64,000 bases of DNA. Source: Nelumbo lutea (lineage: Eukaryota > Streptophyta > Magnoliopsida > Proteales > Nelumbonaceae). The notes below the pieces were generated by a model, which made no database searches, was not told where the DNA came from, and saw nothing but the letters and a program-made list of their open reading frames with translations. Positions 1 to 56,507 of the stretch are shown here, piece by piece (positions within the stretch are counted from its first letter, which is position 1; each line of letters starts with the position of its first letter). The stretch covers positions 22,333,875 to 22,397,874 of the forward strand of contig JAKGHH010000005.1 in NCBI GenBank assembly GCA_022828595.1. The letters are read 5' to 3'. The position numbers and the translations under genes are program-made.

Positions 1-152
1 TTTTCTTTTCTTGCTTTTGCCTTCTTTTTGTTGATTTGGCTCCCCCTGAAATATTTCTTGCAATCAAGCTAAAATAGGGCAAAATTTAATTAAACCATCA
101 TAAAATTTCATGCAAAAACCTCATAAAATATAGATAAATTGTAGGTTCATCA
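1..152 (-). repeat. Element A 3' LTR (first 152 bp only)
   Basis: This is the U3 start of the 3' LTR, cut by the window edge. On the plus strand it ends in CATCA, matching the outer end of the 5' LTR at 9926-9930. The inner edge is set by the adjacent polypurine tract. Confidence 0.92.
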
Positions 153-167
153 AATACCCCCACACTT
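153..167 (-). other. Element A polypurine tract
   Basis: Read on the minus strand this is AAGTGTGGGGGTATT, directly upstream of the LTR start TGATG. It is the expected plus-strand primer site for reverse transcription. Element H carries nearly the same tract at 43641-43655. Confidence 0.85.
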
Positions 168-1365
168 AAGCTTTTGCTTGTCCTCAAGCAAAGACATCAG
201 CCATAAACTTAACATTCCCCCCTTCTGTTCTCACCATTTACCTGGTGAACTTTTTAAGATAGAAATGCATTGAGTAGTCGGGGAACTTTTGTAAGTGCTC
301 AATTCTTATTCTTGTAAATTACCATTTAAGATATGTATCAGATCCAAGGAAAGGAGAATATGAATTTCATCATAGTCTAGCCTTCACTCCTAATTCATAT
401 ATAAATCAGCTCCTTAATTGTCAAGGTTAATGATCAAATTTCACTAAGTTTCACATCTGTAACTAAATCTCAATGAGATTTCAACTTTAGAGTGCCCCTT
501 TGAACCTCGGTTGTCACCACAATTACTTATTTCTAAGGGTGAGTGCATCTTATGCTCCATCTCACCCTTTTCTTCTTTTTTTTTATTTTTTTATTTTTTT
601 ATTTTTTATTTTTTTCGGTGTGAGTGCATTTTATGCTCCATCTCACACACTTTTCTCTCCTTTTTTTTTTTTTTTTTGGTGTGAGTGCATCTTATGCTCC
701 ATCTCACACTGGTCACTTACTTGAGGTAGGACTCATGTTCTGAGCTGCTAGTTTTACTATTCAGCTCAAAATAGCGGAGTCAATTTGGGCTTTTGAATCT
801 TCTTTGCAATTATTGAACCTCAAGAATCAACACTTCAGATGTGCACTAGCTTTCTTGACCATTAACAATGAAATCAAGGGCTTCCATACACATGAAGGAA
901 GTTAGGGCTAGTCATGCTGAAAGGCATATTCAGCTCCCCTTTTCTCATGCATATATCAAATTGGGTCATTCACAAGAATAAAAACTTAACAAGTACATCA
1001 GTCTCCCTCAACTCATTGAATTCCTTCTTAAAAAAATCATCAAATAAATAGTAATGAACTTGAGGGGTTCCAGTCTTTTTTGGTTATGTCATTGCCTGCA
1101 TATGTGTGTTTGGGGTGAATGAGGTGCATGGTTTCAACCCCCATACCCTAGCCTTGGGCTCACTCCCCCACACTTAAGATGAACATTGTCCTCAATGTTC
1201 GTAGTGTTAGGGGATCAAACTTGTTAGAGCAAACTGAAGAAAAGAAAATGATGAACTGAGTCCTTAAAGAATTGGAATTTTGAGAAAAAGATCTTTATTT
1301 TACTAACTAATATTCTAAAAATGACAAAAAGATTCCTTAACCTGTTCATGAGCAAGCATAAAAGA
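168..1365 (-). other. Element A noncoding segment between pol and 3' LTR
   Basis: About 1.2 kb follows the pol stop. Athila relatives may carry an env-like gene here, but no frame of useful length is present on either strand. The only structure I can see is the hairpin array at 537-709, separated by long T runs. The rest is AT-rich with no recognisable motif. Confidence 0.7.
537..709 (-). repeat. Three-copy hairpin array in element A 3' noncoding region
   Basis: Three near-identical inverted-repeat units lie at 537-567, 618-648 and 679-709. Each has the plus-strand core GTGAGTGCAT, a 2-3 base turn, ATGCTCCAT and CTCAC. The outer stem differs between units but stays complementary: GGG with CCC in unit 1, GTG with CAC in units 2 and 3. 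The same unit occurs three times at the same place in element H (44098-44225). No protein reading is proposed. An RNA hairpin in the element transcript is the most natural reading, but this is inference. Confidence 0.85.
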
Positions 1366-4300
1366 TTATTGGTTATCAAGATAAACAGTGGATGGAGGGG
1401 GTACAGTACCGCCCATTAAATATGGTTTTAGGCACTGACCATTTACTTTAAACGTGCCCTGAACCGGGTGGGTGAGTTCTATAGCCCCATGGGGAAAAAC
1501 CTGTGAAATGGTAAAGGGTCCAAACCACCTGGATCTCAGCTTACCTGGAAACAAGCGGAGACGGGAATTATATAACAATACCTGTTGGCCTACATAAAAG
1601 TCCCGTCTCAGCAAGTTCTTATCATGCCAGATTTTTATTCTTTCTTTATAAACTTTGGCATTCTCATAGGTGGTAAGTCTGAATTCATCCAATTCATTCA
1701 ACTGCAACCGCCTTTTAGCCCCTGTGGCCTGAATGTCAAAATTTAAGAATTTAAGAGCCCAATAGGCCTTGTGTTCCAATTCAACTAGTAAATGGCATGC
1801 TTTACCAAAGACCAATCTGTAGGGGGACATGCCAATGGGTGTCTTAAATGCAGTTCTGTATGCCCATAATGCATCATTTAATTTGATGGACCAATCTTTT
1901 CTGGCGGATGCTACGGTCTTTTCCAGAATTCTTTTGAGTTCCCTGTTAGCCAACTCCACTTGGCCACTGGTTTGTGGGTGATAAGGGGTAGCTAATTTAT
2001 GTGTAATTCCATATTTCTGCATTAACCTCTCAAATTGGCTATTGCAGAAGTGAGTTCCCCTATCATTAATTATAGCTCGTGGAGTGCCAAATCGGGAGAA
2101 TAGCTTCTTTAGGAAGTGTACCACCCTTCTTGAGTCATTTGTGGGTAAAGCCATGGCTTCTACCCATTTGGATACAAAGTCAACTGCAACGAGGATGTAC
2201 TTATTCCCAAAAGAATTCGGGAAAGGTCCCATGAAATCTATACCCCAAACATCAAAGATTTCACAGATTAAAATATTGGAAAGGGGCATTTCATTCCGTC
2301 GAGAAATGTTTCCTGATCTTTGGCATTTGTCACATGTGGGCCAATAAAAACCTGATTGCAAAACCTTGGCTGCAGTGCGACTAGCTCCAAAATGACCTCC
2401 TGCTTCTTTATCATGGCAAAATTGGAGTACCGACTCCATCTCTTCCTCGGGGACACATCTCCTTATGATCTGATCTGCACACAATTTATACAAAAAGGGT
2501 TCCTCCCACAGATAGTATTTTACATCAGAAAGGAATTTCTTTTTCTGTTGATATGAAAGGTTAGGAGGAAGGACTTGTGCAGCTAGATAATTAGCAAAAT
2601 CAGCATACCAAGGATATGAGTATTTCTGTATTGAGTACAACTGCTCATCCGGAAATTCTTCTCGAATGTTGCTGGTTATCTCCTCTTTTGAGCTTACCGT
2701 GTCCAACCGGGAGAGATGGTCAGCAGCCAGGTTTGTAGCACCCTTCAGGTCTTTAATCTCAATGTCAAACTCTTGCAATAAAAGGATCCACCTGATCAGT
2801 CTTGGTTTTGAGTTTTGCTTGATAAGCAAGTGCCTTAATGCCGAGTGATCTGTGTGGACAACAACCTTGGATAATATTAGATATGAACGAAACTTATCAA
2901 GTGCAAATATTACTGCTAGCAGCTCCTTTTCTGTGGTGGTGTAATTGAGTTGGGGTCCAGTCAAGGTTCTGCTAGCATAGTAAATTGGCTGAAAATGTTT
3001 GTTCATTCTTTGTCCTAAAATAGCTCCTATAGCAAAATCACTCGCATTACACATCAATTCAAATGGGAGGGTCCAATCTGGTGCTACCATGATAGGTGCA
3101 TGGATCAATTTGTCTTTCAAGATGTTGAAAGCATGAAGGCATTCAGTTGAAAATTCAAAAGGCACTTCTTTCTGAAGCAAGGTAGATAATGGCTTGGAAA
3201 TTTTTGAGAAATCTTTAATAAACCTTCTATAGAATCCGACATGTCCTAAGAAACTTCTCAAAGAACGAACAGATGTTGGGGTTGGCAATTTTTCAATTGC
3301 CTCCACCTTGGCCTTGTCGACTTCTATACCTCTTTGAGAGATCTTGTGTCCAAGCACTATGCCTTCTTGCACCATAAAATGACATTTCTCCCAATTCAAC
3401 ACAAGATGTGTTTCTTTACATCTAGTAAGCACCTGTTCCAGATTATTCAAACATGCATCAAACGAAGAGCCAAAAACTGAAAAGTCATCCATGAAGATCT
3501 CAATAAATTTTTCAACCATATCAGAAAATATAGACATCATACATCGCTGAAAGGTTGCTGGGGCATTGCATAACCCAAAGGGCATCCTTCGGTATGCAAA
3601 GGTTCCATATGGGCAAGAAAAAGTGGTCTTTTCTTGATCTTCTGGTGTAATTGGTATCTGGTTATACCCTGAATATCCATCCAAGAAACAATAATACTCA
3701 TGCCCGGCTAGCCTCTCCAACATTTGATCCATAAATGGGAGAGGGAAATGGTCCTTCCGGGTGGCTTCATTTAATTTTCTATAGTCAATACACACACGCC
3801 ATCCGGTAACGGTTCTAGTAGGGATGAGTTCATTTTTCTCATTTGGAACAACAGTCGTACCCCCTTTTTTGGGCACAACTTGCACAGGGCTTACCCAAGA
3901 ACTATCAGAAATAGGATAAATGATCCCAGCATCTAACAACTTAATTATTTCAGCCTTTACCACTTCTTTCATGTTGGGGTTCAGGCGCCTTTGGGGCTGA
4001 ACGGAAGGCTTACTGTCCTCTTCCATCAAAATTCCGTGAGTGCAGATTGATGGATTAATGCCTTTGATATCTTCTACCTTCCAAGCTATAGCATTTTTGT
4101 GTTCCCGCAGCACTCTTAATAATTTTTCTCTTTGTAAAGGATTCAGCGCTGCGGAAATTATCACGGGGAGATCTGATGGTTCCTCAAGGAAAGCATACTC
4201 TAAATGGGATGGTAATTGCTTCAGTTCAAGGGTGGGGGGTTCTTGGGGTGATGGCTTACCTGATGGTCCAGGCAATTTGCCTAAGTTCTCTAATTTAAGA

Positions 4301-6576
4301 AACCCCTTTCCCTTGAATTGAGGCTTATCGTTCAGGTATGCTATCATGAGGTTTATTTTTTCATTTTCTCCTTCTTCAAGTTCTCCCTGCTGGAGGCAGA
4401 GTTCAAGAGGATCAGTTATTCTACTTACCTGGAAGCATTCATCAATTGTCAATTCAATGGCATCAATCATAAAACAAGAATCATCACTAGAGGGTGCATG
4501 TTTCATAGCATTAGACATTTTAAAAATTATCTCCTCATCTTGTATCCTAAGGCTGAGTTGTCCTTGTTGGACATCAATCATTGCTTTCCCGGTAGCCAGG
4601 AAAGGTCTCCCTAGGATAAGCGGAACCTCCACATCTTCTTGCATGTCTAACACAATGAAATCAACTGGAAAAATGAATTTGTCAACTTTAATTAACACAT
4701 CTTCTATGATCCCCCTAGGATGTCTAATGGATCTATCAGCCAATTGTAATGCCACTCTAGTGGGTTGGGGTTCATTCAACCCCAATTTCTTGAAGATAGA
4801 GTATGGCATTAAATTGATGCTAGCTCCCAGGTCACATAAAGCTTTTTCAATTTTTAAACTGCCAATGGTACAAGGAATAGTGAAACTCCCTGGATCTTTG
4901 AGTTTCTGAGGCAGCTTGTTCAGAAGGATAGCAGAACATTCCTCATTTAATGCAACTGTAGCCACATCTCCCAGTTTCCTTTTGTTTGCCAATAATTCCT
5001 TCAAAAACCTTGCATAGTGTGGCATCTGGGCTAAAGCATCAGCAAAAGGAATATTAATATGTAAACTTTTAAATATTTCAAGAAACTTACCAAATTCCTT
5101 CTCCAATTTTTGTTGCTTCAGCCTGTTAGGGAATGGAACTTGTGGTTGTTGGTGCATCCCTTGTTGTGCTTCTGGTTGTTCCGTCTTCTGTTGTCTGGTC
5201 CCAAGGCTTGTTTCTGCCTTGGGTTCAGCCCAATTCTTCTTTTCTACCTCAGGCAGCTCTTTTCCACTTCTTAAGGTAATAGCTTGCACCTGCTCTCGTG
5301 GATTCACTTCAGTGTTGCTTGGAAGAGTTCCCGGCAGTCTGGAAGAGATTAATTGTGCCAATTGCCCCACTTGGTTTTCCAGGTTTTTGATTGAGGCTTC
5401 CTGGTTCTGGAACCTAGTTTCTGCACCTGCTATAAATTTTGTCATCAGTTCCTCCAAATTGGATTTTGGTTCAGGCTGATGATAAGTCTGGTGGAACGGC
5501 TTGGAAATATGCTGATTTGGCCAGGACTGGTTTGAATGTCCCCTCCATCCTGGATGAAAAGTATGGTGACTCTGGTAACCCTGCTGTCTTGATGAATTGC
5601 TGACATAGTCAACTTGTTCAGTAGATGGTCTGAACTGATTGCCAACTTGGCAGTCTGTACTGATGTGGCATCCCCCACACAATTCACAATTAAGAGGCTG
5701 CACATGCATGGCAGCTATCTGCATTTCATCTATTTTCTTACTGAGTGCTCCTATTTGTGCAGCTAGTGCTGTATAAGTGTCAACATTATGCAAGCCTTGC
5801 TGCTTCCTAGTTTGAGTTCTTTCCGAATGCCATTGATAGTTGTTGGCTGCCATTTCCTCAATAAGTGCATGGGCAACCTCAGGAGTTTTATTATTTATGG
5901 ATCCTCCAGCTGCAGCATCTAATATGGTCTTATTTGAGTCAGTAAGACCATTATAGAAAGTCTGCACTTGCAGCCAAATGGGGAGGCCATGGTGAGGAAC
6001 TCTCCTTAACAGCTCCTTGTAACGTTCCCATGACTCATATAAAGATTCCCCCTCTTGCTGGAAAAAAGTAGTGATGTCATTCCTCATTTTAGCAGTTTTA
6101 GAAGGGGGAAAATATTTAGAGAGAAAACGGCTGGCCATTTCGTCCCATGTGGCTATAGATCCTGCCGGTAATGAGTTCAACCAAGCTTTGGCTTTATCCT
6201 TCAAAGAAAATGGGAATAACCTCAGCCGGATGGCATCATCACTTACCCCATTGTGTTTGAAGGTGTAACAGATTTCCAAGAAGTTAGCAATATGGGCATT
6301 CGGATCCTCATGGGCCATACCACAAAACTGAACCGTATTTTGTATCATTTGGATTATGGCCGGTTTAATTTTGAAGTTATTGGCAGCAATAGTTGGCCTG
6401 ATAATGCTGGAGACAGTCCTGGTGAGGGTGGGCTTGGCATAATCCATCATAGTTCTTTGTTTAGCCATTTCTTGTGCTTCTTGTCTGACTTGCTTAGCAG
6501 CTCTCAAACGGACACGGAGAGTCTGTTCAATCTCCGGGTCGTAAAGGATCTCTTCCAGTTCAGGTCTGCTTGTCAT
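1366..6576 (-). CDS. Athila-like gag-pol polyprotein (gag, protease, RT, RNase H, integrase)
   Basis: An uninterrupted 1,736-residue frame encodes the structural and enzymatic proteins of a Ty3/gypsy retrotransposon. The gag domain spans about residues 80-260 and a CCHC zinc knuckle lies at C297, C300, H304, C309. Protease has DLGAS at 582-586 and ILGRPF near 654. RT has FMDD at 1028-1031. RNase H has CNASD at 1176-1180, TEKEL and HTDH (1241-1244). Integrase has H1388, H1395, C1415, C1418 and a DD35E triad at D1447, D1505, E1541. Two defects show. The first RNase H acidic residue is Asn (N1177), where element H has Asp. The zinc-region spacing between H1395 and C1415 is 11 residues shorter than in H. 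The frame is open but the enzyme is probably impaired. The start is the first Met of the frame, about 1.7 kb from the primer site. Confidence 0.95.
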
Positions 6577-8306
6577 AAACTGTTAAAGTCAAAGCAATAA
6601 AAATGCCAATATTCACAAAAGAAAATAAATAACTAATCCTATCACACTGAAAATATAAAGTGAATTATTGGAATACAAAACCTACATCCTATCATGAATA
6701 AATGAAGTCGATTATACTAAAAGCAGATTTAAACCAATCATCTTATTCAAGGTTCCTTTATCTACATCCATCGATTGCAACATCTGAATTCAGACCCAAT
6801 TTAGATCTGAGTTCAGATCTACAAGTCTTTGGTATTGTTAGTCTAGAGAAATTAACAAATAATAATTCAGATCTGAGCTGTATATCTCATACACACTCAT
6901 TGGTATACACTACAATATACATCCATTAAGGTTGGAATCAAATCTGTGATGCTTTAGGGCTGAAATCAGATCTGATCTGAAAAATAATTTAAAAGGATCT
7001 GAAAAAAATCAGTCCTGAGTTAGGTTTGGGTTAAAGATTTTAAACTCTACAATTGAAGCTCAAACCTGTATAGCTGATGCATATCAAACACTTGCTAAGA
7101 CCTGAAAATTGGGTCTGCAATGTTTGGTATTGCAAGCTATTTGGTCCAAACAACTTTTGTAGAAATCTGAAATCAGGTCTGCTAACTGTTGCACTATAGC
7201 AGCCCTGCTACAGATCTGAATGCTAATAGAAATACTTGGAAAGTGCTAATTTTTCTTAAATATCTGAGGCATAACAATTATTCAATCCAAACATACACCT
7301 CCGTAGCTAATGTAGCTCGGTTACAAGTGGATAAAGCAAATGTTCAAGTCACCCAAAAATCCAAAATGTGCTCTGTATAAGTTCAGTCTTCAACTATAGT
7401 TCAGATCTGTATCAGTTCAGATCTGAATTTTCTTTTTCATTCTTTGCTATCCAATTACCTTTGGGGTATGTCGGATTTATCATAGGGTGAGTTGGGGTGA
7501 TGATGGCACCCAATTCACCTTAAACTTGTATCAGTTCAGGTCTGAGTTCATCTGAACTCAGATCTGAACTGAGCAGTTCTGCAATAGCAGAATTCAGGTC
7601 TGAACTCAAGTCTGAGTTTGGATCTGAATTCTCAATTGCCTTACCTTCAGTTATTGCTACCAAATTGTTTTTGGGGAATAGCAGAAGTGCCCTAGGGTGA
7701 ATTGGGGTGGTGATGACACCCAATTCCCCTCAAAATTTCATCAGTTCAGGTCTGAGTTCAAAGGAACTCAGATCTGAACTATTGCAGATCTGCAATAGCA
7801 GAATTCAGATCTGAATTCAAATCTGAATTCTGATCCGAATTCTCAATTGCTCCTCTTGTTGTTCAAAAGATCTCCCCCTTTTTTTTTCATTTTTTTTTCT
7901 TTTTGTAATGAAAGAAGAAAAAAGAAAAAAAAATTAATAAAGTCTGAAACACAAGCAACTCTTTTCGGCTGAGTGCTGCAGATCTGAAATCTGCTGATCT
8001 GAGTGCCGAATGCAACTCAGATCTGCAACACTCATGTTTTTTGTGAATTTTTTTTTTCTTTTTTTTTTCTTTTTGAAGGGAACAACATCAAGATTGAATA
8101 GAAATCAAATATGCCTTTATTAAAATGAAACTGAAACCAGAAAAAGAAAGTAATCTACTTAAGAAAGAAGAAACATAACTACAGTAGTACAGCAGTTGCA
8201 GTCCAAGCTGAAATGAAAAAGTTAGCAAATTAACCAAACTATGAATGCAATGCTGAATGAGATCAGATTAAGAATGCTCAATGTTTCCTAATATTGTTTC
8301 TCTAAA
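6577..8306 (-). other. Element A 5' leader
   Basis: About 1.7 kb separates the primer-binding site from gag. It has no convincing frame. It is rich in the word TCAGATCTGA and its close variants and contains a two- to three-unit tandem repeat at 7440-7865. T and A runs occur at 7875-7935 and 8045-8075. Confidence 0.75.
7440..7865 (-). repeat. Tandem repeat of about 215 bp in element A leader
   Basis: Two adjacent units share the ordered landmarks CCAATT, TTGGGG, AGGGTGA, TTGGGGTG, GACACCCAATTC, TCAGTTCAGGTCTGAGTTC, GCAATAGCAGAATTCAG and TCTCAATTGC. Unit 1 is about 7440-7640 and unit 2 about 7650-7865. Inside unit 2, 7801-7818 is an 18-base perfect palindrome built of GAATTC and AGATCT. Borders are approximate. 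Confidence 0.75.
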
Positions 8307-8324
8307 TCCCCGGCAACGGCGCCA
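8307..8324 (-). other. Element A primer-binding site (tRNA-Asp type)
   Basis: The minus-strand sequence TGGCGCCGTTGCCGGGGA is complementary to the 3' end of plant tRNA-Asp including CCA. This primer is typical of Athila-type elements. It lies six bases inside the 5' LTR. Confidence 0.93.
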
Positions 8325-8330
8325 AAAACT

Positions 8331-9930
8331 TGATGTGTTGCTCATTGTGACACTAGCAAGTGCACTAGCCGTTCAAGTAATAAAGTAGAGAGTGAAGTAT
8401 CGTTCCCACGAGGATTTAGGAAACAATTACCAATACTAAATTGAGCACTTCTTATCTGATCAACAAATAAATCAAAACTCTAATGAAAGCTAAGAAATCC
8501 TAAATTAAAATCTATCTAAATCATTGGCCCAATTGCCTTCAATTCAGGTTAGAAGAGTAAGCAGTAAATGTCAATCTCAAAATTCAGCAATCTATAAATT
8601 TGGATCATTCGAATGAATCATGATTGAGCCTTGGTTTGGTGAAACCCCAAGGTCATGAATAGCCTCTCTCAAGCGCATGTTCATCCTTTGCATGAGTGAC
8701 GGTTCTTCTATCTCTAGCAAGAATCTAATCCCCATGCATGCATTTCTTCAAACACTTCTAAGGCATCAATTCAAATCTGAATTGATCACCAACTGAATTG
8801 TGCAAGTTGTGTCTAACCTTGCACTCAATTCAGTTCTTGAATAGTAGAACTGAATTCTTAGAGTCTCTCTCAAGCACTCTAGGAATTCCAAGCTGTAGAT
8901 TAATTTGGCCAATCTGAAAATTTCAGATCTGAATTCTTTTTCAAGCAATTCAAATCTTGCAATCTCAGATCTGAGAATTCAGATCTGAGTTTTGAAGGTA
9001 AGTTGGCCGAATTACTCTACAATAACACCCTTATTCAAGAAACTTCAAGTATAATTCAGGACCATTTGAATGAATCAAAAAGAATTAGATTGCTGAACTG
9101 AAATTTTACAAGCTGAAATACATCAAGGAAAAATGGAAACAAGGAGAAAGAAGAAAGAAAATATAACAAAGAAACTGAATTCAAATCAAAAGAGAATGAA
9201 ACTACAAATGATTTATTACAAAAGATCTTTGAATCACAAACCCTCAATTCGAACTCACCTTCTCCTTCTAGCTTGTTTGTCTTGAACTTCCTTCAGCCCT
9301 TCTTCTTCTTCTTCCTTGCGCCTAGCCTTCTTCTCTTCTCTTCTCTCAAGGTGGCTGAACCTCTAAGAGTGGGAGAGCCTTCCTCTCAAGCAATTGAACC
9401 ACTTTCTCCCCTCCTAGAGGCCTCCTTATATAGTTTTTCAAGGGGGCTCTTGCCCCTTCTTGAAGCCTCTAGAATGGGGTGTATTACACCCCTCATGAAC
9501 CTTCTAGAGTGCTCCCTCCTTCTCTTCAAGAAACACCTAGAAGTTGCCGCCCCTAGCTCCCTTTGGGCTGCTATTTGGGCTACAACTTAGCTTGCTTTTG
9601 AGCTCATGTGGGCTACACTCTAGGCTGTTATTTGGGCTAAAAATGGGCTGGGCCGAAATTTCCTTCTTGCTAGGCTTCTTCCCTTGGATTTTCCAAAGAG
9701 TTTCACTTGCTCTTCTTGGGTCGAATGAAATTCTCTTGCTCTCATGGCTGGGCCGGGCTGAACTTGATAAATTTTGGGTTTTCTTTTCTTGCTTTTGCCT
9801 TCTTTTTGTTGATTTGGCTCCCCCTGAAATCTTTCTTGCAATCAAGCTAAAATAGGGCAAAATTTAATTAAACCATCATAAAATTTCATGCAAAAACCTC
9901 ATAAAATATAGATAAATTGTAGGTTCATCA
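8331..9930 (-). repeat. Element A 5' LTR (1,600 bp)
   Basis: The LTR has terminal TGATG (8331-8335) and CATCA (9926-9930), a perfect 5 bp inverted end. It adjoins the primer site on the inner side and copia element B on the outer side. Short open frames inside (for example near 9540-9860 on both strands) look like chance frames. TCAGATCTGA words recur at about 8925-8990. Confidence 0.93.
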
Positions 9931-9935
9931 AATAT

Positions 9936-23245: not shown

Positions 23246-23723
23246 TTATGTTTTAAGGAAAGTATTTGCAAAAAGATTTTATTTCCTGGGATTCATCTAA
23301 GCAAAGAGTGTGACACTACACCTTGAAGCTAGGGGAGAGGTCCTTACTTGTCAAGCAGTTATTGATAATTATGGGCTGAGAGGTTAAGTGTAAGAGACCA
23401 TTAAGGGTTGATTACTTGATGGGCATTATCTTACTTAAGTCCATTACCCTTGGATATTTATGGGATGGCTGGATTCAATGGTTATTTAACTATAAATGTT
23501 GGGCCCATTTTGGGCCCATAGTGATGAGCTCAGTGGTTCAGTGCATTTAGTAGTGATTTCAGCCAAGCCTTTTCATAGAGGTTGGGCTGAACCCATGTGG
23601 GCTTATGTGAGGCCATTGTGGGGTTCCACACCATACAAATCAAACCTAAATTGTCCAAGCAACACTCTTGCATCGTGATCCATATTGCTAGTAGGCATAA
23701 GGCCCATAATTAATAATTAAGAT

Positions 23724-23750
23724 GTCACATGACAACTTTTGTCATGTGAC
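23724..23750. repeat. Palindrome in LTR D, copy 1
   Basis: Twelve-base arms GTCACATGACAA and TTGTCATGTGAC flank a 3-base centre. Each arm contains CACATG/CATGTG, an E-box-like bHLH site. Confidence 0.9.
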
Positions 23751-24417
23751 ATGGGGCGAATCTAGGTTTGGAAATGGGTATGGAGCACCCATCCTCTTAA
23801 GAGGATGAGTCTTATCTCTTAATAGAGTCTAGATCCAAGTAATAATTTGGATAATCTCCAAATATGGTTAGGAGAAGTGCTCCATAAAGAGATAGAAGAA
23901 GAAGAGGGCAAACTAATCTCGAACACTATCAATTCTGCTCTCTCTCTCTCTTCTTCTTTTGTCTCTCATGAAACCCTAGTTAAACTACAGCTTTTGGGAC
24001 TGATAAAGATCTGTTCTTTCTTTGTCTTTTGGAAGAATAATTTGGAGAAATTTTGTGTTCACCTCCTTAATTCGATCCAAGCAGTTTTGTATTGCAGTTT
24101 TGCTGAAAACTGCATTGCTGAACCGACTTCAAGATCAAGCTGCGCCATTTTCAGTGGAAGCTAGTTTTAGGAACTGATTTGGCTGTGAACTACCACCATG
24201 GGATCTACAGTTGTGGTATCCATATCAAGTATACTTCTCCCTCTTTGTTTGGATTGAAATCTGGCCCAGTTTTGAGTAAGAATGATCCTAAAAAAAATGC
24301 AGTTTTTCAAAACTTAGGGAATACGATTCCTGGAAGATCTGGAAATTTTTTTGAAATTTTGCCCAGCCATCTAGCATGGTTTATCCATCCATATGATGGA
24401 TTCTAAACCTTCTTTCA

Positions 24418-25734
24418 CTACTCTTGTCATGTTATGGCTCCCCCTTTGGGTCACACAATGGACCAAGAGCAAGTGTCAGATAATTCTCAATGGAGCCTGC
24501 CAATTTAAGAGAAGTGAGGATTCATGGGTGCTGTTCGAACGGGTATGCACCCTGCTCTGGAGAAAGGTAAAGGCAGCTTCCCCTATGGTGAAGAGGACTT
24601 AGATCGGCAAGGGTGCCTCGTGCTTTTATTTCGCTTACATCAACTATGCAACGCACCCCTGAATCGGACATTGCATCAGCTCGGGTTGGGGAGGATCAAG
24701 TCTAGGGCTCACCATGAGCAAATTCTGAAGAGGTTAGGTAGGAGCCCCCAGCCCTGACACCCGTGGTAAGAAACGTGGGTGATACAGAATCAATGTAGTC
24801 CACGGTGTCGGTCCTCCAAGTTCTTACCGTGTCTCAGACGGACGTGTGAAGAAAATGGCTCCCCGTCCACGTAGGAGGGAGCCCAAGAAGGTTGATTTGG
24901 TAATAATTTACATTTTTTTATGTATTTGTTTTACTATCGCTATGATTAGCATGGCATTACTTTTACTAATCTGTTTATAGTCTTTTGTTTTGAAGCGAGT
25001 GGATGCTGATCAACCCGATGTTGAGACCCCACAATTCCTATCTGAAGGCATTGTGGGTGAAAAGGTATAGATAGTTTGGGTATTTGCATGGTTTTCTTAT
25101 TGCGATTATCTCATTATACTAATCATTTATAGTTTATCTCATCATAGTTGATTTTTTATGTGGATCCTTCTATAATGCTAGTTTTACTCATCATCAGGCG
25201 GCTGGTGCGCGAGTTGTAGTCCTCATAGCCCCACACGAAGAGTAAGGGAACAACTATAGATCCTCCCAATGGCATCGAGGATGCCAGGTTGACTAGGGAA
25301 GTAGCTATTGACAACATCATTCCATTCTCTGACATGTGAGAAGGGGTAGAGACCCCTATAAGTCTACAAATTCAGCCCCTCAACGAGCTGGTGGGCCAAA
25401 CAGAGTTTGTTGAAAAGTATCTTCTAGTGGTCGAGATGCATGAAGAGCCAGTTTCTAGGTTAAGGTAGTTTATCAAGGAGGAGCAGGAATGAGCTGTAGT
25501 GGAAGTGTCACCTGAGCCTGTGCATGAAACAATGACAACAGTCACCAGTCACAATGAAGAAGATGCGCCTACCTCTCTTGCCAAGGCTAAGATCATTGGA
25601 GCTGCACCCACTATGGAGATGGGAACTCATACTGAAGTTGAACCTGTGAGCTCAGACATAGCCTTACCACCCGAGGTTCTATTGTGTGACGAGGAACTTG
25701 CTTTAGTGTGGCAAGTGCTCAAGGATGATTATGA
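24418..25734 (+). other. Unidentified gene-like module, copy 1
   Basis: I do not recognise this sequence. Visible frames start with MAPPLGHTMDQEQ (24437), MGAVRTGMHPALEKGKG (24524-24757), MAPRPRRREPKKVDL (24857) and MEVSPEPVHETMT (25499). After MAPRPRRREPKKVDL the sequence reads GTAATAATTTAC and later a T-rich run ending TTTGAAG. A second GTATAG...CATCAG interval follows RVDADQPDVETPQFLSEG. These look like two short introns between small basic and acidic exons. Stops occur later in the tract. It could be a decayed host gene, a gene captured by a transposon or an unfamiliar element. No function is assigned. Confidence 0.4.
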
Positions 25735-25738: not shown

Positions 25739-26871
25739 CTGGGATTCATCTAAGCAAAGAGTGTGACACTACACCTTGAAGCTAGGGGAGAGGTCCTTAC
25801 TTGTCAAGCAGTGATTGATAATTATGGGCTGAGAGGTTAAGTGTAAGAGACCATTAAGGGTTGATTACTTGATGAGCATTATCTTACTTAAGTCCATTAT
25901 CCTTGGATATTTATGGGATGGTTGGATTCAATGGTTATTTAACTATAAATGTTGGACCCATTTTGGGCCCATAGTGATGAGCTCAGTGGTTCAGTGCATT
26001 TAGTAGTGATTTCGGCCAAGCCTTTTCATAGAGGTTGGGCTGAACCCATGTGGGCTTATGTGAGGCCATTGTGGGGTTCCACACCATACAAATCAAACCT
26101 AAATTGTCCAAGCAACACTCTTGCATCGTGATCCATATTGCTAGTAGGCATAAGGCCCATAATTAATAATTAAGATGTCACATGACAACTTAAGTTGTCA
26201 TGTGACATGGGGCGAATCTAGGTTTGGAAATGGGTATGGAGCACCCATCCTCTTAAGAGGATGAGTCTTATCTCTTAATAGAGTCTAGATCCAAGTAATA
26301 ATTTGGATAATCTCCAAATATGGTTAGGAGAAGTGCTCCATAAAGAGATAGAAGAAGAAGAGGGCAAACTAATCTCGAACACTATCAATTCTGCTCTCTC
26401 TCTCTCTTCTTCTTTTGTCTCTCATGAAACCCTAGTTAGACTACAGCTTTTGGGACTGATAAAGATCTGTTCTTTCTTTGTCTTTTGGAAGAATAATTTG
26501 GAGAAATTTTGTGTTCACCTCCTTGATTCGATCCAATCAGTTCTGTATTGCAGTTTTGCTGAAAACTGCATGCTGAACCGACTTCAAGATCAAGCTGCGC
26601 CATTTTCAGTGGAAGCTAATTTTAGGAACTGATTTGGCTGTGAACTACCACCATGGGATCTACAGTTGTGGTATCCATATCAAGTATACTTCTCCCTCTT
26701 TGTTTGGATTGAAATCTGGCCCAGTTTTGAGTAAGACTGATCCTAAAAAAAATGCAGTTTTTCAAAACTTAGGGAATATGATTCCTGGAAGATCTGGAAA
26801 TTTTTTTGAAATTTTGCCCAGCCATCTAGCATGGTTTATCCATCCATATGATGGATTCTAAACCTTCTTTC
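25739..26871 (+). repeat. LTR D duplicate (unit 2, 3' part)
   Basis: This repeats 23286-24417 and ends at the same CTTTCA. It differs mainly by point changes and by a palindrome with its centre restored (26177-26206). Confidence 0.9.
26177..26206. repeat. Perfect 30-base palindrome in duplicated LTR D
   Basis: The arms are GTCACATGACAACTT and its exact reverse complement, with no spacer. Unit 1 (23724-23750) and LTR J (51033-51063) hold imperfect versions of it. Confidence 0.95.
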
Positions 26872-28800
26872 ACTACTCTTGTCATGTTATGGCTCCCCCT
26901 TTGGGTCACACAATGGACCAAGAGCAAGTGTTGGATAATTCTCAATGGAGCCTGCCAATTTAAGAGAAGTGAGGATTCATGGGTGCTGTTCGAACGGGTA
27001 TGCACCCTGCTCTGGAGAAAGGTAAAGGCAGCTTCCCCTATGGTGAAGAGGAGTTAGATCGGCAAGGGTGCCTCGTGGTTTTATTTCGCTTACATCAACT
27101 ATGCAACGCACCTCTGAATCGGACATTGCATCATCTCGGGTTGGGGAGGATCAAGTCTAGGGCTCACCATGAGCAAATTCTGAAGAGGTTAGGTAGGAGC
27201 CCCCAGCCCTGACACCCGTGGTAAGAGACGTGGGTGGTACAGAATCAATGTATCCCACGGTGTCGGTCCTCCAAGTTCTTACCGTGTCTCAGACAGACAT
27301 GTGAAGAAAATGGCTCCCCGTCCACATAGGAGGGAGCCCAAGAAGGTTGATTTGGTAATAATTTACATTTTTTATGTATTTTTTTTACTATCGCTATGAT
27401 TAGCATGGCATTACTTTTACTAATCTGTTTATAGTCTTTTGTTTTGAAGCGAGTGGATGCTGATCAACCCGATGTAGAGACCCCACAATTCCTATCTGAA
27501 GGCATTGTGGGTGAAAAGGTATAGATAGTTTGGGTATTTGCATGGTTTTCTTATTGCGATTATCTCATTATACTAATCATTTATAGATTATCTCATCATA
27601 GTTGATTTTTTATGTGGATCCTTCTATAATGCTAGTTTTACTCATCATCAGGCGGCTGGTGCGCGAGTTGTAGTCCTCATAGCCCCCCACGAAGAGTAAG
27701 GGAACAACTATAGATCCTCCCAATGGCATCGAGGATGCCAGGTTGACTAGGGAAGTAGCTATTGACAACATCATTCCATTCTCTGACATGTGAGAAGGGG
27801 TAGAGACCCCTATAAGTCTACAAATTCAGCCCCTCAACGAGCTGGTGGGCCAAACAGAGTTTGTTGAAAAGTATCTTCTAGTGGTCGAGATGCATGAAGA
27901 GCCAGTTTCTAGGTTAAGGTAGTTTATCAAGGAGGAGCAGGAATGAGCTGTAGTGGAAGTGTCACCTGAGCCTGTGCATGAAACAATGACAACAGTCACC
28001 AGTCACAATGAAGAAGATGCGCCTACCTCTCTTGCCAAGGCTGAGATCATTGGAGCTGCACCCACTATGGAGATGGGAACTCATACTGAAGTTGAACCTG
28101 TGAGCTCAGACATAGCCTTACCACCCGAGGTTCTATTGTGTGACGAGGAACTTGCTTTAGTGTGGCAAGTGCTCAAAGATGATTATGAGAAGCATAAGAT
28201 CACTCATCTAGGTTATTCCGTCATAGATCGATTGTTACTCAGGGCCTGCATAGAAAGGACAAATATGTTGTATCGAGTTTCATTTTGAAGACCGCTTCTG
28301 TATTATTTAAAAGGACTGGCTGTCATCTGTTGACATTCCCCTGGTGATTATAGGAACGTCGTTGAATACAATTGTGGCCATGATGAACTGCATCATGGAC
28401 CAATCCACAGAGGAGCTATTGTGGTCTGCATTCACCCAATGATTGAGGACATGTGAGTCCTTTGCCGTGCTAGGTTTTTGAATGGATTAGATTGTGGAGG
28501 GAGTTGTGCAAATAGCTCACGTGTTCTGGAAGGCTTGTCTTAGGGGGTCACAGTCCCTTTCCACTCGATCTCTGAAGAATGTCCGTCTACACCTCAAGGT
28601 GGTTGAAGCGAACCTCTCAAAGGTGACTGAGAAGTTAAATGCTCTACTTGATGAGTGCGATCATCAGCAAAAGATAGTGTCGCAATATGAGGCAGAATAG
28701 GAGCTGTTAGATTTTAAAGAGCAGAAGTAAAATCTAGCAAAGATAAGTGAAATGATGAAAGAGTATAATGAATTATAATTTTGTTATTCTATCTAAGGTT
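26872..28800 (+). other. Unidentified gene-like module, copy 2 with unduplicated 3' end
   Basis: Copy 2 repeats the module and then continues beyond the duplication. The frame at 27953-28288 starts MEVSPEPVHETMT and reads on through KHKITHLGYSVIDRLLLRAC. A later frame (28494-28700) ends in a heptad-like stretch, VEANLSKVTEKLNALLDECD, which looks like a coiled coil. Stops interrupt it at 28699 and beyond. This copy shows the original layout; copy 1 is cut at the duplication border. A helical C-terminus after acidic and basic segments could suit many proteins, so identity is open. Confidence 0.4.
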
Positions 28801-43640: not shown

Positions 43641-43655
43641 AATCCCCCCACACTT
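43641..43655 (-). other. Element H polypurine tract
   Basis: The minus strand reads AAGTGTGGGGGGATT, next to the LTR start TGATGGG. It is nearly identical to the tract of element A. Confidence 0.85.
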
Positions 43656-44875
43656 AAACCTTGCCCATCCTCGAGCAAGACAAAACTCAAGCAAAAACAA
43701 TCTAAATACCTACTGATTTTTAAAACTCTCTCTCTCAACATGATGCTTGGCCTCTCGCATGCTTCAATCCAGACTTAATAATCTTTTCATTTTCCACTTC
43801 TTTCTCCTCTTTAACTTGTCAAATAGTAATCTCAACTCACCATTCCTCATGAACCCAAGTTAATTCAATAGTCAAGGAAAGCAAGCATTCCAAAACTGAA
43901 CATTTTTGGACTAAAATAGGCACTCATTGTTTTAACAATCAAATGCAGCCAGATTCAAATGCCTCTCTTTATTTTTGAGGTACCATTAGTCTCTTAGGTC
44001 AAAACAATGTATGTTATTACCATAAATTTGCTTATGTATCACATCTCCTCCACTTAGCATGAGTTCAATGCATCAAAAATTGAAATGGAGTGCTAGGGGT
44101 GAGTGCATTTTATGCTCCATCTCACCCTTTTCTTTTGTTTCTAAATGTGAGTGCATCTTCTGCTCCATCTCACATTTGTCTTTCGCTTCTAAATGTGAGT
44201 GCATTTTATGCTCCATCTCACATTTGTCATGATTTTTTTTTTTGCACAACAATAGACATCACCATTTCAATTCCGATCCATGAACTCATTGACGTGGTCT
44301 CAACATGACTACAAAGCAAGTTCTAGAATAATCAAGCCGTGTTTGACAAGCTTTTGACAGGCCTTTAGGCAAAAAAAAATGCTCATAAGGGTTACATTTG
44401 TATTGAATCTTGCTTATTCCAAAATAATGAGGTGCCTTACATAGTCAAAAAGTTCAGTGAGTCATGCTTGCATCCTGTCTTGTCTATTAAACCTAAGCAC
44501 ATAAATCATGATAGTTTGAAATTATTCAAAGATAAGTTTCTAGGGAGTAAAAATTTTAAAAAGCAAGGTTAAAAAGTGATGATCGAAGCATGCTAGAGTT
44601 ACCCCAGAAATTATCAAATTCCCATAATCTCCCCACACTTAAGGTATACATTGTCACCAATGTATATGACTGTGCGTATGATAGAAAGATTTAAGGGAAT
44701 TTCCCTGAATGCTTTGTTGAGATCCTTCCGATGTGAAATCAGCTGCTAAACACGATTATGTTCCTAAAATTGAAAACAATAAAAATAATTGAACAAAAAT
44801 AACTAAACACAATGGGTTGCCTTCCACAAGCGCAATTATTTAACGTCGTTATGCTCGACGTCCTTCCTTGCTTCC
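43656..44875 (-). other. Element H noncoding segment between pol and 3' LTR
   Basis: About 1.2 kb with no useful frame. It holds the hairpin array (44098-44225) and, like A at about 1160-1200, a CCCCACACTTAAG stretch near 44630-44645. No env-like gene is seen. Confidence 0.7.
44098..44225 (-). repeat. Three-copy hairpin array in element H
   Basis: Units lie at 44098-44126, 44143-44177 and 44191-44225, with starts exactly 48 bases apart. The core is the same as in element A. The outer stem is GGTGAG with CTCACC in unit 1 and AAATGTGAG with CTCACATTT in units 2 and 3, so complementarity is kept while the bases differ. Confidence 0.9.
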
Positions 44876-47800
44876 TTAATTCGATGAATAATGAGGAAGA
44901 TCCAATGAGATGTCTTCCAAGGAGGAGACAATTGCATCCTCATGGAACAACTTTAATCTATGCCCATTCACTTTGAAAACCTTATTTGTATCAAGACTTT
45001 TGATTTCCACTGCACCATAAGGAAACACATTAGTAACAACAAATGGACCCATCCACCTAGAATGCAACTTACCTGGCATGAGTTGGAGTCAAGAACTATA
45101 TAATAACACCTTTTGACCTACCACAAACTATTTCCTTAAAAGAATATTATCATGGAACAACTTGGTCTTCTCTTTGTAGATTCTTGAATTTTCATATGCT
45201 TTTAACCGCAACTCCTCCAATTCTTGTAATTGGAGCTTTCTTGCCATGCCATCTTTTTCTATGTCCATATTGCAATGTGTGATTGCCCAATATGCCTTAT
45301 GTTCGATTTCAACTGGTAAATGACAAGATTTGCCAAAAACTATCCTATAAGGAGACATCCCTATTGGTGTTTTGTATGTGGTCTGGTATGCACAAAGTGC
45401 GTCATCTAGACGTAGGCTCCAATCCTTTCTACCTAGATTCACTATCTTCTCTAAAATGGACTTGACCTCTCGATTGGAAACCTCAGCTTGTCCATTCATT
45501 TGAGGGTGATAGGTAGTGGCGACTCGGTGATGCACCCCATACTTTTTTAGCAAGGCTTCAATGACTCTATTGCAGAAGTGGGTCCCTTGATCACTTATGA
45601 TGGCTCGAGGAATACCAAACCTATTGAAAATGTTATATTTGATAAAACCTACAACACACTTAGAATCATCAGTTTTGGTGGCTTTTGCTTCCACCCATTT
45701 TGAGAAATAATCAACTACCAGAAGTATGTAAACAAAACCACAAGAGGAAGGAAAGGGTCCCATAAAATCAATACCCCAAACATCAAAAATTTCGCAAATA
45801 AAAATGGGGGTTTGGGGCATCTCATTTCTGCGAGACAATGCACCTGTTTGTTGGCATCTTTCACAATTTTTATAGAACAAGTATGCATCTTTAAATAAAG
45901 TTGCCCAATACAACCCAATATCTAAGACTTTCCTAGCAATTCTTTTTGGCCCAAAATGACCACCACAAGCATAACTATGACAAAAATTCAAAATCGACAT
46001 ATGTTCACTTTCAGGGGCACATCTCCTAATCACTTGATTAGAGCAAAATTTCCACAAATAAGGTTCGTCCCAAACATAATATTTTGCCTCATACCTGATT
46101 TTATCCTTCATCGACTTGCTAAGATAACTAGGAAAAATTCCAGTAACTAAGTAATTCACGATATCAGCATACCAAGAGACCATACCTTTTATTTGGAACA
46201 GTTGCTCATTAGGAAAAAGCTCAGAGATGGGTGAGGAGTCTTCATCTTTTACCAACTTGCTTAGATGGTCTGCCACCGAATTTTTTGGCTCCGCTTCAAT
46301 CCTTGATTTCTAAATCGAACTCTTGGAGGAAAAGTGTCCACCTTATCAGCCTCGGCTTTGACTCCTTTTTCGCCAATAAGTATTTCGAAGTTGCATGATC
46401 AGAAAACACAATCACTTTAGAGCCAAGAAAATATGATCAAAATTTATCTAAAGCAAAAACAATTGCTAGTATCTCCTTTTCGGTGTTGTGTAATTGCATT
46501 GTGCAGCATTCAGTGTCCTCGAAGCATAGTAAATGACATGGCTCTTCCCATCAATCCACTGACCTAGAACAACTCCTACCACATAGTTGCTTGCATCGCT
46601 CATGATTTGAAAGAGCAAGTTACAGTCCGGTGGTTGAATAATGGGTGCAATCGTCATCAAATTCTTGAGCTTATCAAATGCTTCCTTGCATTCATCCCCA
46701 AAGTCAAAAGGCACATCTTTTTGAAGCAATTTGGACAATGGTAGGGCAATCTTTGAAAAGTCATTGACAAACCTACAATAAAAACTTGCATGTCCAAGAA
46801 AAGCACGCACTTCCCTAACATTTGTAGGGTAAGGTAATATCACAATTAAATCAACCTTTGCCTTATCGACCTCTATGCCTCTTGCAGAGATAACATGTCC
46901 AAATACAATGCCTTCCTTTACCATAAAGTGGCATTTTTCATAATTCAAAACCAAATTAGTTTCAAAACATCTATCCAGAATTTTACTCAAATTATCTAAA
47001 CAATCATCAAACGAATCACCATAGACAGTAAAATCATCCACGAACACTTCAATGCACTTCTCAATAAATTCAGAAAATATACTAATCATGCACCTTTGAA
47101 AAGTACCTGGAGCATTGCACAGACCAAAAGGCATCCGTCTGTAGGCGAAAGTGTCGAATGGGCAAGTAAAAGTCATTTTCTCTTGGTCCTCTTGAGCAAT
47201 AACAATTTGATAATAACCTGAAAATCCATCGAGAAAGAAAAAGAATGCCTTACCGTCTAACCTTTCTAACATTTGATCTATGAAGGGCAAGGGGAAATGG
47301 TCTTTTCTAGTGACTAAATTAAGTTTCCGAAAGTCAATCACCATACGCCAGCCATTTTGTACCCTCATTGGGACCAATTCATTATTTTGATTTCTTACGA
47401 CAGTGATCCCACTTACTATCCAAAATCGGATAGATTATCCCTTCCTCTAGTAACTTAAGCACTTCTTTTTTTACCACTTCTTTCATTGTTGGGTTGAGCT
47501 TCCTTTGCGATTCTCTAACTGGCTTGGCACCATCTTCCAAAAGAATTCTATGCATGTAGATTGATTGAGGGGCTGACCCCTTTTATATCGGCTAAGGTCC
47601 AACCCATCGCCGTCTTGTGCTCTTTCAGAACCTCGATGAGTTGTGCCTCTTGATTATCAGTCAACCCTTTTGCAATGATCACTAGAAATGTTTCTTTGTC
47701 ACCCAAGTAGGCATACTTAAGGTGATCTGGTAAGGTCTTCAGCTCTAACGTCGGAGCCTACAAAACAAAAGGCAACAATTTCTTATAAGAAAACGATGAT

Positions 47801-49956
47801 AGAATATTAGAATTTGTTACCTTTTGTTCTACTATCAGTTCCGAAGCTTCACATCAAGATGAATATAGCTCTTCCTTCATATCCAATGGTGCACTTAATT
47901 CGAGCTCCACATTCATATCCTCTTCCCCAAACATTTCCTACACAATTGAGTCAACAATGTCAACTGAACAAATCATATGACATTCATTAGGGTACTTCAC
48001 TGCTTTGAAAATATTAAATTTAACAATCTCGCCGTCAAACTCAATGGAGAGGGTACCCTCATCCACATCTATTTTGGTTTTGGTCATTTTCATAAATGGC
48101 CTGCCTAATAGAAGAGGGGCTGAACTTGTGATAGTGTCTTCCTCCATCTTCAAGATGTAAAAGTCAGTTGGAAATATTAGGTCATTAAACTGCACCAAAA
48201 CATCTTCAGCAATCCCTTCAGGGTAGGCATTAGAATGGTCAGCTAACTGAATGACAACACTAGTTTCTTTAAATGGACCTAAATTCAAAGCAAAATAAAT
48301 TGAGTATGGCATGACATTGATGGATGCACCTAAATCTAGCATGGCAACTCAATTCTTTTATTGCCAATCACGCAAGGTAAAGTAAATATACCTGAATCAG
48401 CACACTTTTCTAGCAAGGTTCTCTTGATGATGGCTGACACATTCTCCCCAACCCTTACCTTCTCATCACCTCTCAGCTTCCTTTTGTTAGTGCACAACTC
48501 CTTCAGACATTTTGCATATTTTGGGATTTTCTTGATGGCATCTAACAAAGGAATATTTATCTCCACCTTCCTAAAGGTCTCCAAAACTTCTTGCACGTAC
48601 TCTTCTTTTTTAGATTTTTCCAACCTACTAGGAAAAGGTGGCACAATGACATTAGAAATCTTAGGTAAAGGGGAATCAAGCTTTACCTTATTGGAACTCT
48701 CAAGTGGATCTTGTCCTTCCTCTTTATCCACTTTCCTTGGTGAAGTATGTTGTGGCTGCAATTCCTTCCCACTTCTCAGCAACATTGCACTCGCATTCTC
48801 CTTGGGATTGACCACCGTCTGTGATGGTAATTTTTCTGAGTTTTGCACCTCCAAATTGCTAATAGAAGTAGCAAGTTGATTGATTTGGTTCCCTAAGTTC
48901 TGGATGTTGGCCCTTCTTTCCTGTTGGAATTGTTAGTGTTAATCGCTAGAGCCTTAACTATCTCATCTAAAGACATATCTGAAATCGAGGGCTGATTGTG
49001 AGCTTGGGCAGGTGCTGGAATTGGTGGTTGTCTCTTGAAAGCTTGAGGTTGGAATCTTTGTGGTCCTCCTTGATTTTCATAGCTCAGATTGGGATGATCC
49101 CTCCACCCAGGATTGTAATAGTTAGAATAAGGATCATACTTGCATTGAGGTTGGCCCGAAAATCCTCTTACCGCATTTACTTTCTACATCGAACCATCTT
49201 GTAATGATGGGCACATATCCGTATGATGCCCAGGAATCAAGCATATGCTACAAACCTTAGCTGCTTGTAATTGCCCTACTACCAATTGACGAACCAAAGC
49301 AGTTAGATCAGAAATTTGACTTTCAAAATTAGAATGGCCTACCTCATTAACAAGCCTGATAGCACCATCTGTTCTTGCTCCAAATTGTTGGGAGTTTTTG
49401 GCCATGTTGGAAATCAATTCCCTAGCCGCCTAAGGTGTTTTATTGACCAAGGCTCCTCCACTAGCTGCATCATAGGTTGGAGTCCTTCGTAGAAGTATTG
49501 GATTAAGAGTTGCTCAAGTATTTGGTGGTGTGGACAGCTAGCATAGAGTTGTTTAAACCTTTCCCAATACTCGTATAGTGTCTCACCACTAAACTTCCTT
49601 ACCCCATAAATCTCTTTTCTAATATTTGCAGCTTGTGATGCAGGGAAGTATTTATCTAAAAATATCCTATTACTATTCATCTCGTCCCATGTACGTATTG
49701 AACCAGGAGGAAGAATGTATAACCAGTCCTTTGCTTTGTCTCGTAAAGTAAAAGGAAAAGCTATAAGTTTTACCTAATCCTCAGTCATACCCTGTGGTTT
49801 CATGCTCGAACAGATGACATGGAACTCTTTAAGATGCTTATGAGGGTTCTCACTTGGAAAGCCATGAAAAACAGGAAGCAATTGAATCAAACCTGATTTA
49901 AGTTCAAAAGCTACCACGAGAGTGGGATAGATTATGCATAAAGGTTGTTGATTCAT
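44876..49956 (-). pseudogene. Element H Athila-like gag-pol, broken
   Basis: In order on the minus strand: gag start MNQQPLCIIYPTL (49956), gag core (49680-49414), zinc knuckle CSICLIPGHHTDMC (49417-49184), the gag-protease spacer (48854-48336), protease with LDLGASINVMPYS (48342-47938), RT with FVDDF (47377-46466), and RNase H with SDASN. Integrase (46276-45128) keeps an intact zinc region, GGHFG...CERCQ, and [14 protein letters not shown] and GQAEVSNRE. An integrase tail follows (45079-44876). Frameshifts and stops break it into at least seven pieces. It is a useful internal comparison for element A because its RNase H Asp and integrase spacing are normal. Confidence 0.9.
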
Positions 49957-50000
49957 GATTGGTGTAGTTAAATCTCTTAGCCTCTATCAACCATCATTTC

Positions 50001-55688: not shown

Positions 55689-56424
55689 GGAGAAGAATTC
55701 TCTTGCCCGGTGTTACACCATAGCATGTTTAGACAATCAGATCCAGAGACGACTCGATAAGATCAAAGTCTCCAAAGACATTCTGGATAGTCTGAAGACT
55801 ATGTACGAGGAGCAGAATCGTTCTGCTCACCAAAAAGTTCTCAAGTTGTTGATGACCACACAGATGACCGAGAGGCAATAGGTCCATGACCGCACCATGA
55901 AAATCATGGGTACATTAATGAACTGGAGGCCCTTGGATCTTATCGACTCGTACATAGTCTCTACACGGAGAAGAATTCTCTTGCCCGGTATTACACCAGA
56001 GCATCTTTAGACAATTAGATCTAGAGATGATTTGATAAGATCGAAGTCTCCAAAGACATTCTGGATAGTCTAAAGACTATGTACGAGGAGTAGAATAGTT
56101 CTAGTCACCAAAAGGTCATCAAGCTGTTGATGACCACACAAATGACCAAGAGCCAATAGGTTCATGACCGCAACATGAAAATAATGGGTATATTAATGAA
56201 CTGAAGGCTCTTGGATCTTATCGAATCGTACATTGTCTCAGCTCGGAGAAGAATTCTCTTGCCCGATGTTAGAGCATAGCATCTTTAGACAATCAGATCC
56301 AGAGACGATTCAATAAGAGCAAAGTCTCCAAAGACATTCTAGATAGTCCGAAGACTATGTACGAGGAGCTAAATCATTCTGCTCACTAAAAGGTCCTCAA
56401 GCTGTTGATGACCACACAGATGAT
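55689..56424 (+). repeat. Tandem repeat of a 278 bp gag segment, about 2.7 copies
   Basis: Copies start with GGAGAAGAATTCTCTTGCCC at 55689, 55967 and 56245, a period of exactly 278 bases twice. Copy 3 stops after about 180 bases at LTR fragment L. The period is not a multiple of three and every copy contains stops, so this arose in already decayed DNA. Confidence 0.95.

Positions 56425-56476: not shown

Positions 56477-56507
<31 letters not shown>

Follow-up and report, generated by a model that had tools for sequence, protein, structure and literature searches.

The 64-kb stretch of DNA analysed here (the window) contains two Ty3/gypsy retrotransposons, elements A and H, both on the minus strand (Table 1). 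In the single open frame of A, a Pfam scan recovered gag, protease, reverse transcriptase (RT), RNase H and integrase in the order seen in the Athila lineage of Ty3/gypsy, and H retains the broken remains of gag and pol. Element A is probably a young insertion, because the parts of its LTRs at 1-156 and 9779-9934 are 99.4% identical across those 156 nt. The 3' LTR of H was placed from the polypurine tract (PPT). The two elements are clearly diverged, with 64% identity in pol DNA, 57% in integrase protein, and 42% and 26% across two stretches of Gag.

A preliminary description of the window had called both elements Athila-like, and the domains, the likely primer binding site (PBS) and an extra PPT appear to fit that label. 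The likely PBS of A (TGGCGCCGTTGCCGGGG) is one which we take to be of the tRNA-Asp type, and a tRNA-Asp primer binding site is typical of Athila. When A residues 900-1600 were used in a homology search, the organisms named among the best 120 of 7,951 matches were plants, and the highest identity among the listed full-coverage matches to the RT-integrase region was 79%, in Rubroshorea leprosula. The extra PPT lies in the linker between pol and the 3' LTR of both A and H, as is stated for Athila4 and Calypso, which share with them an Athila-type gag-pol and have one extra linker PPT in the available part of their account (PMC2829016). No open reading frame of at least 200 amino acids, such as might represent an envelope-like frame, was found in the linker of A or H. 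In this A resembles Diaspora, an env-less relative; in contrast to A and H, 128 bp separate the pol stop of Diaspora from its PPT, too little for such a linker (PMC1142308, available part). The available text on Athila4, Calypso and Diaspora makes no mention of a hairpin array, and the word 'hairpin' does not occur in that of PMC1142308.

Three further observations concern the window. A tandem duplication of about 2.45 kb (23286-25734 and 25739-28188) has copies that are 98.5% identical. A 278-nt repeat occurs in three tandem copies at 55689-56522, with a diverged copy at 35073-35350. Finally, the Rfam family snoR71 (RF00097) scores above its gathering score antisense to gag, at 5984-6090 on the plus strand and in two other loci (L128:113-219 and L092:3088-3194), and this family may overlap retrotransposon gag.

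Table 1. Positions of the features of elements A and H within the window; arms, stems and loops are given in brackets.
Element	Feature	Position	Strand	Basis
A	Part of 3' LTR (truncated by window start)	1..156	-	99.4% identity to 9779-9934
A	Terminal PPT (sense CTTAAGTGTGGGGG), adjoining 3' LTR	157..170	-	sequence; position from LTR match
A	Terminal-PPT hairpin (stem TTTGCTTG/CAAGCAAA, loop TCCT, plus-strand letters)	173..192	-	sequence; other copies
A	Array unit 1 (GGGTGAG/CTCACCC)	537..567	-	pattern match and folding
A	Array unit 2 (GTGTGAG/CTCACAC)	618..648	-	pattern match and folding
A	Array unit 3 (GTGTGAG/CTCACAC)	679..709	-	pattern match and folding
A	Internal PPT	1165..1178	-	sequence
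A	Internal-PPT hairpin (stem GAACATTG/CAATGTTC, loop TCCT)	1181..1200	-	sequence; other copies
A	Open gag-pol frame: gag, protease, RT, RNase H, integrase	1366..6576	-	ORF list, Pfam scan
A	Likely PBS (TGGCGCCGTTGCCGGGG... from 8324 downward)	8306..8324	-	sequence
A	5' LTR	8330..9934	-	upper end, LTR match; lower end inferred via likely PBS
H	Terminal PPT	43645..43657	-	sequence
H	Terminal-PPT hairpin (stem CTTGCCC/GAGCAAG, one mismatch)	43660..43679	-	sequence
H	Array unit 1 (GGGTGAG/CTCACCC)	44097..44127	-	sequence, pattern match, folding
H	Array unit 2 (AAATGTGAG/CTCACATTT)	44143..44177	-	sequence, pattern match, folding
H	Array unit 3 (AAATGTGAG/CTCACATTT)	44191..44225	-	sequence, pattern match, folding
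H	Internal PPT	44630..44642	-	sequence
H	Internal-PPT hairpin (stem TATACATTG/CAATGTATA)	44645..44666	-	sequence
H	Broken gag-pol remains, several pieces	about 44900..49980	-	tblastn with A protein; ORF pieces 45128-46276, 46466-47377

Organization of the linker

Read in the sense direction, the linker runs from the end of pol through a hairpin, the internal PPT, the hairpin array, a further hairpin and the terminal PPT to the LTR. The A and H linkers align at three places only, the array (533-671 of A against 44093-44243 of H, E about 6e-16) and each of the two PPT regions. The preliminary description had placed both arrays between pol and the 3' LTR; for A this is borne out by the match of the 3' LTR to the 5' LTR, and for H the array does lie downstream of pol and before the terminal PPT, the position of the 3' LTR being inferred from that PPT. 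Two PPTs flank the array in both window elements and in many further loci; at some loci the motif of one PPT, or of both, was not recovered. The array is roughly 370-460 nt from each PPT in A and H, and roughly 160-290 nt from the PPTs in the loci examined of a third family, which we call T-type after its TAGG stems. Among the functions that had been listed for the array, 3' end formation is the least likely, because hundreds of bases separate the array from the LTR, and a role as terminator or polyadenylation signal was rejected on the distance to the terminal PPT (about 370 nt in A and 440 nt in H) and on spacers that differ between families.

Hairpins also accompany the PPTs themselves. In the window and in loci L051-L155, most PPTs, internal as well as terminal, are preceded on their sense-upstream side, at about 1-4 nt, by a hairpin of 7-10 bp. 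Its loop is commonly AGGA or GGGA, and the stems vary between families while their pairing is kept. Over 64 distinct PPT contexts, a set that allowed up to one PPT mismatch and hence includes some chance sites, the median hairpin score was 17 vs 8 for base-shuffled sequence, 66% reached the shuffled 99th percentile, and the loop was TCCT in 27 and TCCC in 10. The base of the hairpin lies about 15-17 nt from the PPT end, a distance close to that between the polymerase and RNase H sites of reverse transcriptase. Because these two distances are similar, a pause at the hairpin could position the RNase H cut.

When the A and H linkers were folded in sliding windows, low z-scores fell mostly, and not only, at the array and PPT regions; in A they also occurred at 700-779 (sense -3.9), which overlaps the end of the third unit, and at 940-1019 (sense -2.4). 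When long-range pairing partners of the loop were sought elsewhere in the element, the longest matches were 9 nt in A and 8 nt in H, values within the range of 200 shuffles of A, most of which gave 8 or 9.

Parallels to this layout are described in other plant elements. According to the available part of one account, Sireviruses carry more than one PPT as well as palindromic repeated motifs, and their terminal PPT has an inverted repeat, so that A and H resemble them in conserved non-coding motifs, in extra PPTs ahead of the 3' LTR and in an inverted repeat next to the terminal PPT (PMC2829016). However, Sireviruses belong to Ty1/copia, and the motifs that they repeat, most of which have a CGG-CCG core, are located in the LTRs and at the 5' end of env; their upstream PPTs have no inverted repeat, and the terminal one has an arm within the LTR (PMC2829016, same part). 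In A and H, by contrast, a local hairpin stands at both the internal and the terminal PPT with the array between them, the units are devoid of a CGG-CCG core, and the A array lies outside the LTR. Family-specific tandem repeats between pol and the 3' LTR are described in Retand and related elements, but whereas those repeats are specific to each family in sequence, here one loop is common to diverged families and the stems covary (PMC11963269, available part).

The hairpin unit and covariation of its stem

Comparison with related copies resolved each unit into a 7-bp stem of variable sequence and a near-invariant 17-nt loop, which reads TGCATYTTATGCTCCRT on the plus strand and AYGGAGCAUAARAUGCA on the sense strand of the element; the G-C pair that closes the loop is nearly fixed. 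By pattern, the six units of the window were recovered at 539-565, 620-646, 681-707, 44099-44125, 44147-44173 and 44195-44221, with no match in 100 shuffles, and their places, arms and core agree with the preliminary description. The single amendment concerns the stem of the first H unit, which is paired as had been described but is GGG/CCC rather than GG/CC, one pair more. In the 843.7-Mb genome that holds the window, the unit with a TGAG stem has 2,971 exact matches. A further 954 matches do not have G at the third stem position (with a pattern of left arm and loop only) and 70 have G there but no A at the second, whereas only 9 lack both the left G and the right C of the closing pair; reversed controls of all four patterns gave no match in the genome. 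Arrays hold one to five units in the samples anchored on integrase and six in locus L146, and units are spaced about 43-54 nt apart in H- and T-type arrays, the spacers of A-type arrays being more variable.

The preliminary description had pointed to paired changes in the outer stem between the diverged elements and had called for a statistical check, which in this genome places pairing far above shuffled and slid controls. From 234 units (loci and window), 227 had at most four loop mismatches, and in these, which include old copies that add decay to the counts, stem positions 3-7 were Watson-Crick in 84%, vs 14-42% with partners slid by one or two. Units grouped by stem and flank fell into 44 clusters, of which the 18 with at least three members served as unit classes; these yielded 11 distinct majority arm pairs, more than had been claimed (among them GGGTGAG/CTCACCC, GTGTGAG/CTCACAC, ATGTGAG/CTCACAT, AAGTGAG/CTCACTT, TAGTAGG/CCTACTA and TGGTAGG/CCTACCA), with 73 of 77 pairs Watson-Crick, a result that none of 20,000 arm shuffles equalled. 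A second, separate count was based on 89 units in 79 distinct rows, namely 85 of 134 reference units and four of the six window units; 25 references were dropped by hand (four as doubtful matches, none chosen by pairing score) and 24 others fell outside the set. Its covariation score was 0.358, vs 0.152±0.011 for shuffled and 0.056-0.135 for slid alignments, and two-sided changes filled 132 cells vs 52.4±6.4 in shuffles; two of the five measures used on these 89 units (pairs with any two-sided change and number of pair types) were not above shuffles. Within classes, change amounted to 0.055 in the stem, 0.030 in the loop and 0.172 in the flank, the loop value being partly ascertained, as loop constancy is in any copies found through the array pattern.

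An inner GCAT/ATGC pair within the loop had also been proposed. Such a stem is possible, and covariation neither supports it nor rules it out, since its bases hardly vary and show no two-sided change in the 89 units. RNAfold prefers this pairing on the antisense strand, where five of the six window units form a tidy inner 4-bp stem with a 3-nt loop; on the sense strand the inner pairing that it favours differs slightly. This neat antisense fold, together with some antisense frames that stay open across the array, would suit a unit that works in an antisense transcript as a small-RNA trigger, an antisense RNA or the code for an antisense peptide. However, spacings such as 43, 46, 47, 61 and 81 break any single frame, and the 78-codon open frame of L066 found no protein in a search, which led us to reject a coding function; an antisense role of any kind we regard as very improbable.

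With regard to strand, G.U and A.C pairs on the sense strand are about equal in number (33 vs 27 overall and 38 vs 33 within classes), so there is no preference for the sense RNA strand. Sense RNA is the natural candidate, and the strand counts are neutral on it. That pairing is about equally good on both strands could also mean that the hairpin acts as DNA, either as a cruciform or, while reverse transcription proceeds, in single-stranded cDNA; it might, for instance, aid plus-strand synthesis between the two PPTs that flank the array in A, H and many other loci, or mark the DNA for a protein. A site in duplex DNA should nevertheless conserve its arms, whereas here the arms change in pairs and it is the asymmetric loop that is nearly fixed, so that we consider a DNA role unlikely.

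Occurrence in families with integrase and in defective copies

Presence of the array was scored by reading downstream from integrase matches, without using the array itself. It was found in 51 of 55 sampled elements from three diverged families in one genome: 24 of 25 A-type elements (picked from 113 listed integrase matches, 10 in the upper part of the list and 15 in the lower), 18 of 20 H-type elements within the 451-nt stretch read (spread over 108 listed matches) and 9 of 10 T-type elements within the 281-nt stretch read (all among the first 22 of 150 listed matches). These picks were made by hand and are not random, and the matches listed are the best-scored ones. The script had counted all 25 A-type elements as carriers; the match in L165 has neither stem nor PPT and was set aside as chance. 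The loop was exact in 63 of the 68 true units of the A type, 52 of 57 of the H type and 27 of 36 of the T type, with Y allowed at loop position 6 and, in the H and T counts only, R at position 16. When the genome that holds the window was searched with an Arabidopsis suecica polyprotein and 16 candidates were scored, all 16 integrase-side matches lay at places listed for A-type integrase, and no array-less Athila family was identified among them. Pattern scans of collections other than plant genomes gave 0 and 12 matches in viral contigs and 38 in prokaryote genomes; stems were present in none of these 50 contexts, and the matches were taken as chance rather than as relatives. A pol search of viral contigs found nothing.

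Selection on folding, the explanation offered in the preliminary description, is the best reading of this position in 51 of 55 elements together with pairing above chance. It has to be weighed against the possibility that the array has no selected function and is a short repeat that duplicates and contracts, its arms being matched by template switching in a quasi-palindrome during reverse transcription or replication. Template switching can create paired changes without selection, and unit numbers of one to six, with spacings of about 43-54 nt in H- and T-type arrays and more variable spacers in A-type ones, would be natural for such a repeat. Yet this process leaves unexplained why three families should have a 17-nt loop that is nearly fixed and is not a palindrome, and why the array is present in nearly all sampled elements, and the lower rate of within-class change in stem and loop than in flank also speaks against it. 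We judge it unlikely, by a shade more so than a role in DNA.

The array also occurs in copies without RT-integrase. Among 49 distinct array places in L051-L130, judged on up to about 1.5 kb of upstream sequence, 15 showed upstream similarity to integrase, 24 to gag or protease only and 10 to neither; all 49 were found through the array, which gives no unbiased count of its retention, and a single tandem repeat contributes four of the 24. Nineteen loci were compared with A; in eight of them, all A-like copies (L058, L060, L083, L084, L085, L086, L092 and L099), similarity begins at A 1211-1217, just sense-upstream of the internal-PPT hairpin, and continues to the LTR, so that the PPT-array-PPT block was kept and pol was lost. 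Gag or protease similarity followed directly by the PPT-array region, without RT-integrase, was observed in L061, L070, L083, L087, L092, L099, L101, L113, L115, L128 and others, copies which we take to be reminiscent of TR-GAG elements. At another place (G000:C1:5847711-5866635, partly covered by L074-L080), a unit of about 2,360 bp, present in at least nine tandem copies, combines protease-like sequence with an array block and is possibly a satellite in the making.

The association of array and PPTs in copies without RT-integrase is consistent with the main rival to the reading we prefer. In this rival, Gag encoded by the element itself binds the hairpins, which occur several times toward the 3' end of the genomic RNA and would act as a signal for packaging or dimerisation; defective copies would keep them for packaging. 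The hairpins are repeated and their purine-rich loop contains GGAG, and GGAG loops bind retroviral NC; in addition, the GCAU and AUGC of the loop, as read from the sequence, could pair loop-to-loop between two molecules. Against this, one and the same loop accompanies Gag proteins whose identity is only 26-42% for A vs H and 27-42% for A vs those T-type copies that have a Gag match, and known packaging signals usually lie in the 5' leader. On balance, a Gag-bound signal seems rather unlikely, if less so than the three alternatives considered above.

A proposed structured RNA element read through its loop

The reading that we favour, tentatively, is that the array is a cis-acting structured RNA element whose loop is recognized, the probable reader being a conserved RNA-handling factor of the host. 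We infer that it is RNA rather than DNA that folds, that a protein reads the loop, that this reader belongs to the host, and which step it serves. The array would sit in the 3' untranslated part of the element RNA, between pol and the 3' LTR, where each unit would offer the same 17-nt loop and the sequence of the stem would matter little as long as it pairs. The loop and its closing G-C pair would thus be the part that is read and the stem a handle, and affinity may be increased by having one to six units. That the loop is recognized within a folded single strand is suggested because a near-fixed, asymmetric loop stands on interchangeable paired stems, and a host reader is preferred over Gag because the loop stays the same while Gag diverges. 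The host factor could bring the genomic RNA into the right RNP, either for nuclear export or for protection and translation, in the manner of CTE and RTE in animal retroelements.

An export- or RNP-type role is preferred because of the position of the array. CTE and RTE are located between the last gene and the 3' LTR, and the array is likewise predicted, in silico, to be a structured RNA in that interval. In the available parts of the sources, the CTE of simian type D retroviruses and the RTE/MTE of mouse IAP and musD are described as cis-acting structured RNAs that recruit host export factors for full-length RNA (PMC1363727, PMC12786077). Unlike these, the array consists of one to six short, separate hairpins with variable stems and a near-fixed loop, and its host is a plant. 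No Rfam family matched the array of A or H at gathering scores, in a database that may not include CTE or RTE. According to the available part of a review, direct studies of RNA export have not been made for plant LTR retrotransposons, and these elements are generally without introns, so that the need for an export element is not obvious (PMC12786077). The core sequence, searched as letters, had no match in the literature collection searched, and no comparable array was seen in the titles and abstract beginnings surveyed.

A more specific version, which we regard as possible though more doubtful than the general reading, is that the array is a plant-specific RNA passport. One host factor would read the loop common to several Athila-type families and to their derivatives without RT-integrase; families with strongly diverged Gag would thereby have a single route of export or RNP entry in common, which the defective copies would exploit. 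If this is the case, the loop would be a bait for that host factor and, together with the two PPT hairpins, the whole linker would be a structured 3' control region.

Such an element would, to our knowledge, be the first of its kind in plant LTR retrotransposons. A near-fixed loop on interchangeable stems, present in thousands of copies in this one genome and also in copies without RT-integrase, would provide a defined bait and a clean set of mutants with which to find the factor and the step. The array would also supply non-coding criteria for such elements and for their non-autonomous derivatives.
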